NCBI GenBank assembly: GCA_016934575.1 | Contig: JAFGSN010000223.1 | Coordinates: forward strand, 1-45,139 | Origin: Vicinamibacteria bacterium | GTDB taxonomy: Bacteria; Acidobacteriota; Vicinamibacteria; Fen-336 | Length of the DNA: 45,139 nucleotides | Direction: 5' to 3' | Shown: piece by piece, positions 25,265-30,120 of the stretch | How positions within the stretch are numbered: position 1 is the stretch's first letter | Layout: every line of letters begins with the position of its first letter | Translations under genes and position numbers: made by a program | Notes under the pieces: generated by a model | Told to the model about the DNA's origin: nothing | Database searches by the model: none | What the model saw: only the letters and a program-made list of their open reading frames with translations

Positions 25265-25290
25265 GGAACCATAGCCTTGTATTTCAGTCC
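25265..25290 (+). promoter_or_regulatory. ECF-type promoter of the sigma gene (probable autoregulation)
   Basis: GGAAC at 25265-25269, 17 bases, then GTCC at 25287-25290. GGAAC is the classic -35 of ECF sigma factors and GTC a common -10 core. A start about 7 bases downstream would lie just before the ribosome site GGAGGAGG at 25299-25306. The same GGAAC-17-GTC arrangement occurs at 27199-27223. Confidence 0.6.
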
Positions 25291-25312
25291 AATCAATTGG
25301 AGGAGGATCGAC

Positions 25313-25957
25313 GTGAGACGCGCGCTGGTCTGCTGTATGCTCATGGCCGTGATGGCGACCGCCGTATATCCGTCCATGGAGCACGATGACGCCCTCGATG
25401 TCGACCATGCCCGCCAGGGCGATGAAACGGCCTTCGAGGCCCTCGTCGTTCGACACGAGAGTCACGTCTATCGTCTCGCGCGAAGGATGCTCGGCGATCC
25501 GGACGAGGCCCTGGATGCGACGCAAGAGACCTTTCTGCGCGTCTTCCGCGGCATCGGGAGCTTCCGTGGCGACGCCCGATTCCGTACATGGGTCATCGGC
25601 ATTGCGCTCAACGTCTGCCGCAGTCGTCTCACGAGCGCGGCGCGACGCGAGCGGTTGAAAAGCGTTTGCCTCGAACACGAGAACCCGGAAACAGGCGAGC
25701 GCCGCGATTATCCGATTCCTGATCCAAGTCCTGATCCGGAAGCCATGGCGATGGGCGAAGAGTTGCGCATCGCGCTCGATCGCGCGCTCGCGAGCCTTTC
25801 TGTCGAGCATCGAACGATCCTGCTCCTGCGCGAGATGCAGGATCTGGACTACGAAAATCTGGCGCGCGCCCTGGCCTGCCCGGTCGGCACCGTGAAGTCG
25901 CGTCTTTGCCGGGCTCGGGAGGCCTTGCGGAAAGCGATGGAGGAGATCTGGCCGTGA
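25313..25957 (+). CDS. ECF RNA polymerase sigma factor (sigma-24 type)
   Basis: Region 2 is clear (GDETAFEALVVRHESHVYRLARR, EALDATQETFLRVFRG, FRTWVIGIALNVCRS), as is region 4 (LSVEHRTILLLREMQDLDYENLA, then CPVGTVKSRLCRAREALRKAM). It should redirect RNA polymerase to GGAAC-type promoters, held off by the anti-sigma factor encoded next. Start choice is unusual: GGAGGAGG lies 6 bases before a GTG at 25313, giving 214 residues with a hydrophobic leader (RRALVCCMLMAVMATAV). The ATG at 25376 would give a conventional 193-residue factor but has no ribosome site. The stop shares GTGA with the next gene, indicating coupled translation. Confidence 0.9.
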   Translation: MRRALVCCMLMAVMATAVYPSMEHDDALDVDHARQGDETAFEALVVRHESHVYRLARRMLGDPDEALDATQETFLRVFRGIGSFRGDARFRTWVIGIALNVCRSRLTSAARRERLKSVCLEHENPETGERRDYPIPDPSPDPEAMAMGEELRIALDRALASLSVEHRTILLLREMQDLDYENLARALACPVGTVKSRLCRAREALRKAMEEIWP

Positions 25958-27114
25958 CTTGCCGGGAGTTCCTGCGCCTGCTGGACGAGGACGGACCGGT
26001 CGACCGAACGCCGGCTGCCGATCATGTCTCCACGTGTGCGTCATGCCGCAGGGCTCTCGAGCGCTGGCGCGCGATGAAGAGCGCGCTGGCATCGATGAAC
26101 GACGATCCTCTGCCTCCCTTTCTACATACGCGACTCATGGACGGGATCAAGGCAAAGCGCGCGAGACGATCGGCCTGGGCTTTGGCGCCGATGGCGCGTT
26201 GGCTCGCCCCACTGGCAGTCATCGGCGTCGTCGCGATGATCGTCGGTCACGAGGCCTGGCGCGCGCCGACGCATCCGGTCCTGGCGCCTACGCCCGCTCC
26301 GACAAATCCAGATTGTCAGATGACGCCGGCCGTTCGCAAGCCCGATTCGGACAAGACTCGGAGGACGCCCGTGAGAACCAGCGTCAAGACCGAACACGCG
26401 ACCGCGGGCGCGACTGGTGAAGCGAAGCTGGAGCTGGGAACGGATCATGCGCCGTCAATGGCGCGAGCGGCTCCGCCGACGAACCTGATTGGCTCAGGCG
26501 GAGATTCATTTGCGCCTGAGGTTCCGGGCATACAAGAGAGCACGGGAACAGCTCCAGAGAAGGAAATGCGCGCAGATCCTACGCTAAAGATAGAGGAAGC
26601 GAAAAGGCATAAAGGGAGCGAGAAAGACACCGCTCATCGAGACTATGAAGGCGGGATTCGTGATGCACCGATCGAGGAAGCCCTCCCCATGCCTCCCCGG
26701 GCGGCGCCCGGCGCTCGCGAGACACGCGTCCTCGGGATCCTTCGACGCGGAAGAAACGAGGCGCGCTCACAAACGATCGCCTGTTTCCTGTATCCCGTCG
26801 AAGCCCCGGACTCGCCCCGATCCCTCGAACTGCCCACCGAGACCGCACCCCCGCCCGGAGCGGTCTGGCGGCTCGATGTTCTTCCTGACGGGAGCATACG
26901 CCTCGAAGACGCCAAACCCGCTCGAGCATCCGAGCCGGCGTCACGCGCGCTCCTCGATGATGACGCCCGTAAGACCAAACAGCGGTCAGCCGTATCCGAA
27001 GGGCTTGCGCTTGATGACCTCTCCCGCGCATCGGAAAAGCTGGGCCGGCTCGATTCGATCAGAAGCCTGCCGCGGGGACGATATCTGCTTCGTCGCGCCC
27101 ACACCGAGCGCTGA
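25954..27114 (+). CDS. Anti-sigma factor with HC2 zinc motif and long periplasmic part
   Basis: The 386-residue protein begins with GTG overlapping the sigma stop. The N-terminal cytoplasmic part shows the zinc anti-sigma pattern C3, then H24-VST-C28-AS-C31. One membrane segment (about 82-98, WLAPLAVIGVVAMIVG) follows. The remaining roughly 280 residues are periplasmic: a Pro/Thr- and Lys/Glu-rich linker, then a short folded-looking end (LDVLPDGSIRLEDA, LGRLDSIRSLPRGRYLL). It should hold the ECF sigma factor at the membrane until a periplasmic signal triggers release. The long low-complexity periplasmic region is unlike compact RseA-type proteins. No protease partner is encoded nearby. Confidence 0.85.
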   Translation: MTCREFLRLLDEDGPVDRTPAADHVSTCASCRRALERWRAMKSALASMNDDPLPPFLHTRLMDGIKAKRARRSAWALAPMARWLAPLAVIGVVAMIVGHEAWRAPTHPVLAPTPAPTNPDCQMTPAVRKPDSDKTRRTPVRTSVKTEHATAGATGEAKLELGTDHAPSMARAAPPTNLIGSGGDSFAPEVPGIQESTGTAPEKEMRADPTLKIEEAKRHKGSEKDTAHRDYEGGIRDAPIEEALPMPPRAAPGARETRVLGILRRGRNEARSQTIACFLYPVEAPDSPRSLELPTETAPPPGAVWRLDVLPDGSIRLEDAKPARASEPASRALLDDDARKTKQRSAVSEGLALDDLSRASEKLGRLDSIRSLPRGRYLLRRAHTER

Positions 27115-27198
27115 ACCTGACTGTTGAAGAGAAAAGCCTCAGGAGCGTAGCGCGTCTCCGCCTGCTGTGGTTGCAGGTGAAGTCCTCGCGTTGAATCC

Positions 27199-27224
27199 GG
27201 AACAATCATGCGCACGCCCGGTCT
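27199..27224 (+). promoter_or_regulatory. Second GGAAC-17-GTC ECF-type promoter
   Basis: GGAAC at 27199-27203 and GTCT at 27221-27224 are separated by 17 bases, the same spacing as before the sigma gene at 25265. It lies 26 bases upstream of the ATG at 27250, after AAGGAGG. This makes the secreted protein gene a probable target of the neighbouring sigma factor. Confidence 0.6.
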
Positions 27225-27249
27225 CATAACATAGGGCAAGGAGGAAATC

Positions 27250-28176: not shown

Positions 28177-28794
28177 CTATTCCGCCTTCTTTTCGCTCTT
28201 CTGCTTTCCCTTGGATCCGGTGTCGTCCCCCAGCTTGAACTTCCCCTGCTTTCCAAGCGCCTTGCCGATACGGCCGAGTTGATCAAGCCGCACGCGGCCG
28301 ACCAGATTGACGAGCACGACCTCGTCCGGTTCGAGCACGAAGATGGCCAGACCGCCGGGCTCGCCGGAGGCGTTCTTGAAGAGACTGATGCGAACCATCT
28401 CCGTTTGGCCGCGTTTCTTCTTTTCGGTCACTGAAACGATCGGCGTCCATTGCGGTCCGTCGAGCTGCTGTCTCACGCTGCTCGTGACCTCTATCAGCTC
28501 CTCCCATGACGGCGCGCCATCCTTGTCGAACTCGATCACTTGGACATAGACGCCTTCGAGCTCCTTCATGAGATCACGCAGCTCCGCGGCATCGCCGCCT
28601 TTGGAGCTGAAACCTTGCGAAGCCCAGCCCATCGTTTCCTTGTCGATGGTGATATTCACGACTTCCTTCGCTCGAGAGGCAAGGTCGCCCCAATTATCGA
28701 GCTTGAGACGGGCGCCCTGAGCCATGCTTGCGGCGGGAACCGCCGACATTGACGCGATGATCAGAAACGGAGCGATAACTCGATGCTTCCGCAT
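28177..28794 (-). CDS. DUF4252-like secreted protein
   Basis: The 205-residue protein has a signal peptide (about 1-26, ending SMAQGA). Its body resembles DUF4252: a first strand-helix part with LASRAKEVVNITIDKE, a central WEELIEVTSSVRQQL, and the C-terminal FVLEPDEVVLVNLVGRVRLDQLGRIGKAL. A Lys-rich tail (GKQKSEKKAE) follows. Function of this family is unknown; its members often sit beside ECF sigma/anti-sigma genes, as here. GGAGGAG lies 3 bases before the ATG. The 77 bases before it contain a small hairpin (GCCACG / CGTGGC, 28831-28849) that may separate it from the anti-sigma-like gene. Confidence 0.75.
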   Translation of the reverse strand: MRKHRVIAPFLIIASMSAVPAASMAQGARLKLDNWGDLASRAKEVVNITIDKETMGWASQGFSSKGGDAAELRDLMKELEGVYVQVIEFDKDGAPSWEELIEVTSSVRQQLDGPQWTPIVSVTEKKKRGQTEMVRISLFKNASGEPGGLAIFVLEPDEVVLVNLVGRVRLDQLGRIGKALGKQGKFKLGDDTGSKGKQKSEKKAE

Positions 28795-28871
28795 GTCTCC
28801 TCCTCATGGAACAATCGACTTCTGTCGCGCGCCACGCCTTTTACGTGGCCGCTCAATAGCCATGTACGCGG

Positions 28872-29282
28872 TCAAGCGCCGTTCGAATGCACGGCTTCGG
28901 AGGACGGTCGCGACGAGTCGCCCAGCGGTGCGCCGGCCAGTTGCTCGCCGATTCGTTCCCAGCGTACGGATGAGAACGCCTTTCTCTCGATCCGATTGAG
29001 GTGATGCGCGGCGATCGACAACGCCGTCAGGGTGCGTTGCAAAGCCGCCTCACGACGCGCGCGAGATCGTTGCCGTTGCTCGAAGACAAGGCCGACGCCG
29101 ATCGCCGCCACGAGCGCGGCCGCCGCGGCAAGCATCCGAAACCAATGCGTCACGGACCGTCTCGAATGAACGGTCCCCAAGGATGCGTCGCGTTCAATCC
29201 GCGCGCGCACTCTTGTGACGAAGTCCGGCGGCGGCGCCTTGCGGCGCAAGGAGTCTTGGAGATCATTCTCGAGCCGACGCAT
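28872..29282 (-). CDS. Small membrane protein, probable anti-sigma factor
   Basis: The 136-residue protein has a short cytoplasmic N-terminus (about 1-46, with PPPDFVTRVRARIER), one membrane segment (about 48-67, WFRMLAAAAALVAAIGVGLVF) and a charged periplasmic part. It contains no zinc motif. The start overlaps the end of the sigma gene by 20 bases, so the two are made together. The PPPDFVTRVRARI phrase before the membrane segment is common in short anti-sigma-like proteins paired with ECF factors; the regulatory role is inferred mainly from position. Confidence 0.7.
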   Translation of the reverse strand: MRRLENDLQDSLRRKAPPPDFVTRVRARIERDASLGTVHSRRSVTHWFRMLAAAAALVAAIGVGLVFEQRQRSRARREAALQRTLTALSIAAHHLNRIERKAFSSVRWERIGEQLAGAPLGDSSRPSSEAVHSNGA

Positions 29283-29790
29283 GGCGTGCCTCCTCGAGAG
29301 CGGCGAGCCGGTCGCGCAGCACGGTCAAAGCGCGGTGAAGCCGGCTCTTGACGGTGTTCACGGGCAGATCGAGAATCCGCGCAATCTCCCGCGGATCCAA
29401 ATCTTCTTGATAGCGTAACACGACGACAGCTCGAGCGCCGGCCGGAAGCCCGGCCACGAGACGTCGGAGCGCTCGCGCTTGAAGCGGATCGTTCTCGACC
29501 GAAGGTGGTGAGACGAGATCGATCTCGTCGAGCGCAACGCGACACCTGCCCATGACACGACGCAGAGAATCGAGACAGCGATGAGTCGTCGTCCGTCTCA
29601 GCCAGTGCACGAGATGGGACGCGCTTTGAATCTTGTGATAATCCCGATAAAGGCGCAAGAAGACGTCTTGCGCCGCATCCTCGGCCAGCGCAACGTTGTG
29701 AAGCATGTGGTAGGCGATGCTGAAAACGAGCGATTGGTGAGCCGTGACCGCCTCATTGAAGGCGGGAATCTCTTCCGACGTGGAGATCAT
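29263..29790 (-). CDS. ECF RNA polymerase sigma factor (second)
   Basis: The 175-residue protein contains region 2 (FNEAVTAHQSLVFSIAYHML, LAEDAAQDVFLRLYRD, LVHWLRRTTTHRCLDSLRR) and region 4 (LPAGARAVVVLRYQEDLDPREIA, LDLPVNTVKSRLHRALTVLRD). The ATG at 29790 is chosen because GGAGGAAGGG ends directly before it; the open frame extends upstream with other ATGs (29817, 29835, 29850). It heads a unit sigma, anti-sigma-like, DUF4252. It is distinct in sequence from the ECF factor at 25313, so two separate ECF circuits lie within 5 kb. Confidence 0.9.
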   Translation of the reverse strand: MISTSEEIPAFNEAVTAHQSLVFSIAYHMLHNVALAEDAAQDVFLRLYRDYHKIQSASHLVHWLRRTTTHRCLDSLRRVMGRCRVALDEIDLVSPPSVENDPLQARALRRLVAGLPAGARAVVVLRYQEDLDPREIARILDLPVNTVKSRLHRALTVLRDRLAALEEARHASARE

Positions 29791-30120
29791 CCCTTCCTCC
29801 GGCGATTGGCCCGTCATCGCGTCCGTGCCGTCCATACGCCCCCTGTCCATGAAGAATACGCTCGATCGAGCCGATCGAATGCATTCATCAAGCCACCCGA
29901 ATGGCCGTGGCTGAAATTCGTATAACGGACGAGGACAATCACGGTAAAGTGCACGATCACGGCGGCATGCCACAGACCCGCGCCCGACCCATGAAGGACA
30001 CTGACCGGATGACGTTCCTACATTCCCCCTGAACTCCCATCTCCCTGAATAGGGTTGGGGTTGGGGTTGGGGTTGGGGTTGGGCGACGCCACGATCACGG
30101 CCACGCGCGCATAGCAGTCG
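29791..30120. other. Intergenic region upstream of the second ECF unit
   Basis: These 330 bases lie between the end of the efflux operon and the second ECF sigma gene, both on the minus strand. They hold the (GGGGTT)n tract at 30052-30083 and otherwise no recognisable gene. The promoter for the sigma gene should be here; no convincing -35/-10 pair was found on the minus strand. Confidence 0.4.
30052..30083. repeat. (GGGGTT)n tandem hexamer tract
   Basis: GGGTT, four copies of GGGGTT and a final GGG make 32 bases of perfect hexamer repeat. The plus strand has six G-runs of 3-4, enough for a G-quadruplex; the minus strand reads (AACCCC)n. It lies 37 bases beyond the end of the outer-membrane factor gene and about 260 bases upstream of the second ECF sigma gene. 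Slippage could change the copy number. Confidence 0.9.

Follow-up and report, generated by a model that had tools for sequence, protein, structure and literature searches.

Two copies of an ECF-type promoter motif precede two genes in a 45,139-nucleotide stretch of Vicinamibacteria DNA (contig JAFGSN010000223.1, hereafter the window). They raise the question of whether one sigma factor controls both its own operon and the gene for an exported protein that follows it. The first-pass annotation had reported GGAAC, 17 bases and GTC at 44 and 47 bases ahead of the sigma and secreted-protein starts. Reading the window letters directly showed this to be exact. GGAAC-N17-GTC is found at 25265-25289 and 27199-27223, within the sites GGAACcatagccttgtatttcaGTCCAA (25265-25292) and GGAACaatcatgcgcacgcccgGTCTCA (27199-27226). 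The 44 and 47 nt are counted after the last base of GGAAC, up to the sigma GTG (25313) and the output ATG (27250); counted from its first base, the distances are 48 and 51 nt. The two sites also match outside the quoted bases, following GGAAC[C/A]AT ... C[A/G]GTC[C/T][A/C]AT. If transcription starts about 6 nt past the –10 element, the sigma transcript would carry a short leader. The features are collected in Table 1. Our answer, to which we assign a probability of roughly 0.88, is that the locus encodes an RpoE-like ECF sigma factor that regulates its own operon, together with a membrane anti-sigma factor of the Hx3Cx2C type, and that this sigma controls the output gene and probably a few more genes for exported proteins.

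Table 1. Features of the sigma, anti-sigma and output genes and of their putative promoters (window coordinates).
Feature	Position	Strand	Basis
–35 GGAAC, sigma operon promoter	25265..25269	+	exact match; element and spacing also at L186, L188, L200, L240, L266, L267, L269
–10 GTCCAA, sigma operon promoter	25287..25292	+	read directly
Shine-Dalgarno-like GGAGGAGG ahead of GTG 25313	25299..25306	+	read directly
RpoE-like ECF sigma gene, 214 aa from GTG; alternative ATG 25377	25313..25957	+	Pfam, NCBIfam, PDB
Anti-sigma gene, 386 aa, GTG 25954 overlapping sigma stop	25954..27114	+	NCBIfam antisigma (sub-cut-off), Hx3Cx2C
–35 GGAAC, output gene promoter	27199..27203	+	exact match
–10 GTCTCA, output gene promoter	27221..27226	+	read directly; aligned with relatives
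Shine-Dalgarno-like AAGGAGG ahead of ATG 27250	27238..27244	+	read directly
Output gene, exported protein of no named family, 270 aa	27250..28062	+	conserved core, homologue set

The sigma gene was examined against domain and structure collections. Pfam recognised Sigma70_r2 (4.5e-18, residues 44-112) and Sigma70_r4_2 (6.5e-14, residues 153-205), separated by a linker of about 40 residues. The protein thus holds only the sigma2 and sigma4 domains, as expected of ECF (group IV) factors. It scored above the cut-off of the NCBIfam sigma70-ECF superfamily, and its nearest PDB matches were sigma-H/sigma-E. With the RpoE equivalog TIGR02939 it stayed below the curated cut-off (137.7 bits versus 236.15), and we therefore file it as RpoE-like, not as RpoE. 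The AAC of an ECF –35 element is present in the GGAAC ahead of its own gene and is kept in the orthologues; this sigma would be the factor that pairs with it. We favour the GTG as start codon, with the Shine-Dalgarno-like sequence just 5′, though the true start may be the ATG at 25377. If translation begins at the GTG, region 2 is preceded by a hydrophobic N-terminus resembling a signal sequence (VRRALVCCMLMAVMATAVYPS). The window holds a second ECF sigma gene as well; this gene, a DUF4252 gene and what may be an anti-sigma gene occupy positions 28177-29973 on the minus strand, convergent with the trio. GGAAC-N17-GTC was not found upstream of this second sigma gene; tandem CCCAAC/CCCCAA units lie there, at about 30050-30090 (minus strand).

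The second gene of the trio overlaps the sigma gene by 4 nt. Its product matched the NCBIfam antisigma profile with 2.4e-06, a value under the cut-off of that profile. The Hx3Cx2C motif of class-I zinc-type anti-sigma factors is present at residues 24-31, as H24-x3-C28-x2-C31, and the three residues H24, C28 and C31 are invariant across five homologues. The protein also has a hydrophobic segment, and its C-terminal end, which contains PxGRY, is conserved; its membrane topology, judged by eye, would be that of an anchored factor. In its long C-terminal region no Pfam or NCBIfam family rose above cut-off.

At its N-terminus the output protein has a stretch resembling a signal peptide; none of the Pfam and NCBIfam families reached cut-off with this protein. 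Its homologues share a conserved core (VDGLNTID, KWVL, GWQ, SY, ATGxG). The AlphaFold model, with a pLDDT of 78, consists mostly of strands, and a fold search in the PDB gave no match with E < 0.001. Homologues were found in 28 of the 193 genomes of the class, and nearly all of the 80 named output loci that were fetched belong to Acidobacteriota. Most lie far from any such sigma gene. A conserved sigma-output linkage in the window's own family (f1) was considered and rejected: the output homologues are unlinked in f1 and in the class.

In order to see how the two sites fare in relatives, loci that keep the order sigma, anti-sigma, output were compared. There are four besides the window, with sigma factors 63% (L186), 59% (L200), 52% (L188) and 36% (L240, Myxococcota) identical to that of the window. 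The first-pass annotation had held that it would be refuted if relatives keeping the three genes had lost the motif or its spacing; no loss was seen, GGAAC-N17-GTC preceding both the sigma and the output gene at 4/4 loci. The sigma was searched in fifteen genomes, chosen chiefly for the presence of the motif ahead of their output gene, so that the sigma side constitutes an independent test. Six of the fifteen have a sigma at least 49% identical, and the motif precedes it in all six, as autoregulation predicts; this conservation supports a positively autoregulated sigma. At L266, L267 and L269 the motif stands before the sigma gene although the output gene is located elsewhere. On the output side, 18 of 86 distinct upstream regions carry the motif, as compared to 0.26 in mononucleotide shuffles and 0 for the reversed motif. 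When 23 sites were aligned, the base preceding GTC was mostly G and the –10 element mostly GTC[T/C][C/A]A; since the sites had been selected by their GGAAC and GTC, only these flanking preferences are new information. GGAAC-N17-GTC also occurs before more distant RpoE-like sigma genes (about 40-46% identity) across the class.

These observations have to be weighed against readings in which the two sites mean less, or something else. A pattern this short occurs by chance: 1.96 ± 1.39 matches are expected in the window, so that about two of the five observed could be random, and across the genome the motif is under-represented, with 204 matches versus 280 for its reversed control. The bare motif is uninformative. 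What goes beyond chance is its placement before these two genes, where the genome density predicts only 0.004 matches per 150-nt upstream region, and its conservation there. Position and spacing are held at both genes in the four other three-gene loci, and the count ahead of output genes far exceeds expectation. In our view this conservation has already refuted the idea that both sites are meaningless, to which we give practically no credence.

A less easily dismissed reading accepts both sites as real ECF promoters and assigns them, wholly or in part, to another GGAAC-reading sigma factor, the adjacent one reading something else. The genome indeed yields 13 sigma matches, and several RpoE-like sigma genes across the class have the motif upstream. 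However, the motif stands before the adjacent sigma in all six genomes with an orthologue at least 49% identical, whereas the nearest paralogue in the same genome, C179, is without GGAAC-N17-GTC upstream and has f1 relatives that use GGAAT-N17/18-GTA. We regard control by such a factor as unlikely. It is more improbable still that the output is functionally unrelated and simply picked up a sigma promoter once it lay beside the sigma system. The usual separation of output and sigma genes and the six f1 genomes in which bipA has no adjacent trio would fit such a capture. Yet ECF-like promoters of several types precede members of the output family, linked or unlinked, which argues for ECF control of the output that does not depend on linkage. 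Control of both promoters by the adjacent sigma thus stays our preferred reading. A foreign origin of the whole contig was also considered and rejected: BipA, encoded next to the trio, shows 77-79% identity to its f1 counterparts and the GC content of the contig is uniform, so that the contig is native to this genome.

The extent of the regulon was then considered. The first-pass annotation had proposed to define it by scanning the genome for bare GGAAC-N17-GTC, a scan that, with fewer matches than its reversed control, is unable to do so. A variant, GGAAC-N15-CRGTCY, was rejected as being at chance level genome-wide (18 versus 26 in the control). Counting GGAAC-N17-GTCYMA in the window's own genome gave 13 matches versus 11 reversed and was likewise set aside; only the positions differ, the reversed-control sites falling within long open frames. 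In the same genome, all five GGAAC-N17-GTCTAA sites precede genes for exported, lipoprotein-like or small membrane proteins, although the numbers are small, and both the gene borders and the exported character were assessed by visual inspection of open frames. A GTCTTAA site lies before a lipoprotein-like gene on C246. Further GGAAC-type sites were noted on C97, C106, C120 and C246 of G000 (L298, L300, L302, L184), ahead of genes for a TPR protein, for lipoprotein-like proteins and a small membrane protein, and for an exported protein with a Big_5 domain; these genes are candidate members of the regulon. In relatives, similar GGAAC-N17-GTC(T/C)(A/C)A sites precede DUF4139-like and VIT/VWA protein genes; with the Pfam profile, no DUF4139-like gene was found in the window's own genome. 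Of the circuit first proposed, two promoters of one autoregulated ECF sigma with an exported output were supported. The claim that the circuit is self-contained, with one output, was not: most output homologues lie apart from the sigma, and further genes for exported proteins have similar sites upstream.

Across Acidobacteriota, the promoters ahead of output genes are of several types. In Vicinamibacteria-type genomes, TGCAAG-N15-CGTTC precedes the output gene, and in such genomes it also precedes the gene for a DUF4139-like exported protein. The same motif is found before a zinc-finger anti-sigma-like gene downstream of an atypical sigma-like gene. This last arrangement was observed at L150, L152 and L153; at L153 Pfam recognises only region 4 of the sigma-like product, and weakly, and at L150 the DUF4139-like gene with its own TGCAAG-N15-CGTTC promoter comes next. 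Five f1 genomes (G002, G003, G004, G009, G010) have GGAAT-N18-GTA upstream of a divergent output homologue and also GGAAT-N17/18-GTA upstream of their RpoE-like sigma gene. A possible further type, GGTTTCT followed by GTGTC, was noted before output genes at L187, L191, L194, L199 and L208. For many output homologues the promoter is of another ECF-like kind, or no promoter was recognised. In G194, a GGAAC-type site precedes a DUF4139-like gene.

On a tree of 79 outputs the promoter types are clustered, with 17 changes versus a shuffled mean of 38.7. The window output falls in a 24-row clade (99/99) with 13 GGAAC types, the window included. This pattern suggests that targets persist while sigma factor and promoter type are exchanged. 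We tentatively propose, at slightly worse than even odds, that the output family and the DUF4139-like exported protein form a conserved regulon core that has come under the control of non-orthologous ECF sigmas in different Acidobacteriota lineages. The promoter types involved would be GGAAC-N17-GTC, TGCAAG-N15-CGTTC and GGAAT-N18-GTA, and perhaps GGTTTCT...GTGTC.

The proposed mechanism is as follows. The genes from 25313 to 27114 would form one operon transcribed from GGAAC-N17-GTCCAA, recognised by its own sigma product, and the same sigma would recognise GGAAC-N17-GTCTCA ahead of the exported-protein gene. A signal from the envelope would free the sigma from the membrane-anchored class-I anti-sigma. 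Once freed, it would amplify its own operon, switch on the output and probably also activate a few exported-protein genes elsewhere in the genome. Overall, the system appears ordinary in kind and well supported for a case built on sequence alone, with a small, probably envelope-related regulon that is probably slightly larger than first proposed.

It seems that few ECF systems have been studied in Acidobacteriota. Here, comparative evidence ties together a sigma, an anti-sigma, a promoter and a conserved exported target, which makes an uncharacterised family of exported proteins, found widely in the phylum, accessible to experiment. If promoter types are exchanged ahead of one target family, sigma-regulon rewiring could moreover be studied directly.

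Among known systems, RpoE/RseA is a close parallel. The –10 element of sigma-E promoters contains GTC. In E. coli, the –35 element of sigma-E (RpoE) is GGAAC(TT) (PMC8103513). The window system resembles RpoE/RseA in its two-domain sigma, GGAAC –35, GTC-containing –10 and predicted autoregulation, and also in an anti-sigma encoded next and exported targets. It differs in a sigma under the RpoE equivalog cut-off (137.7 versus 236), in an anti-sigma with Hx3Cx2C and a different C-terminal part, and in that the gene after the anti-sigma codes for an exported protein outside any named family. Another parallel is offered by the class-I anti-sigma factors with an Hx3Cx2C zinc motif (ASDI; PMC7406223). 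The window anti-sigma shares with them this motif, a hydrophobic segment and a gene overlapping that of the sigma, whereas its long C-terminal region with the shared PxGRY end, matching no family, sets it apart. The RpoE-like ECF factors found class-wide (the C179 paralogue and L032-L060) are about 37-46% identical to the window sigma. Unlike it, they have a different anti-sigma and are unlinked to the output, the f1 promoter being GGAAT-N17/18-GTA; like it, many of them have a GGAAC- or GGAAT-type promoter of their own.
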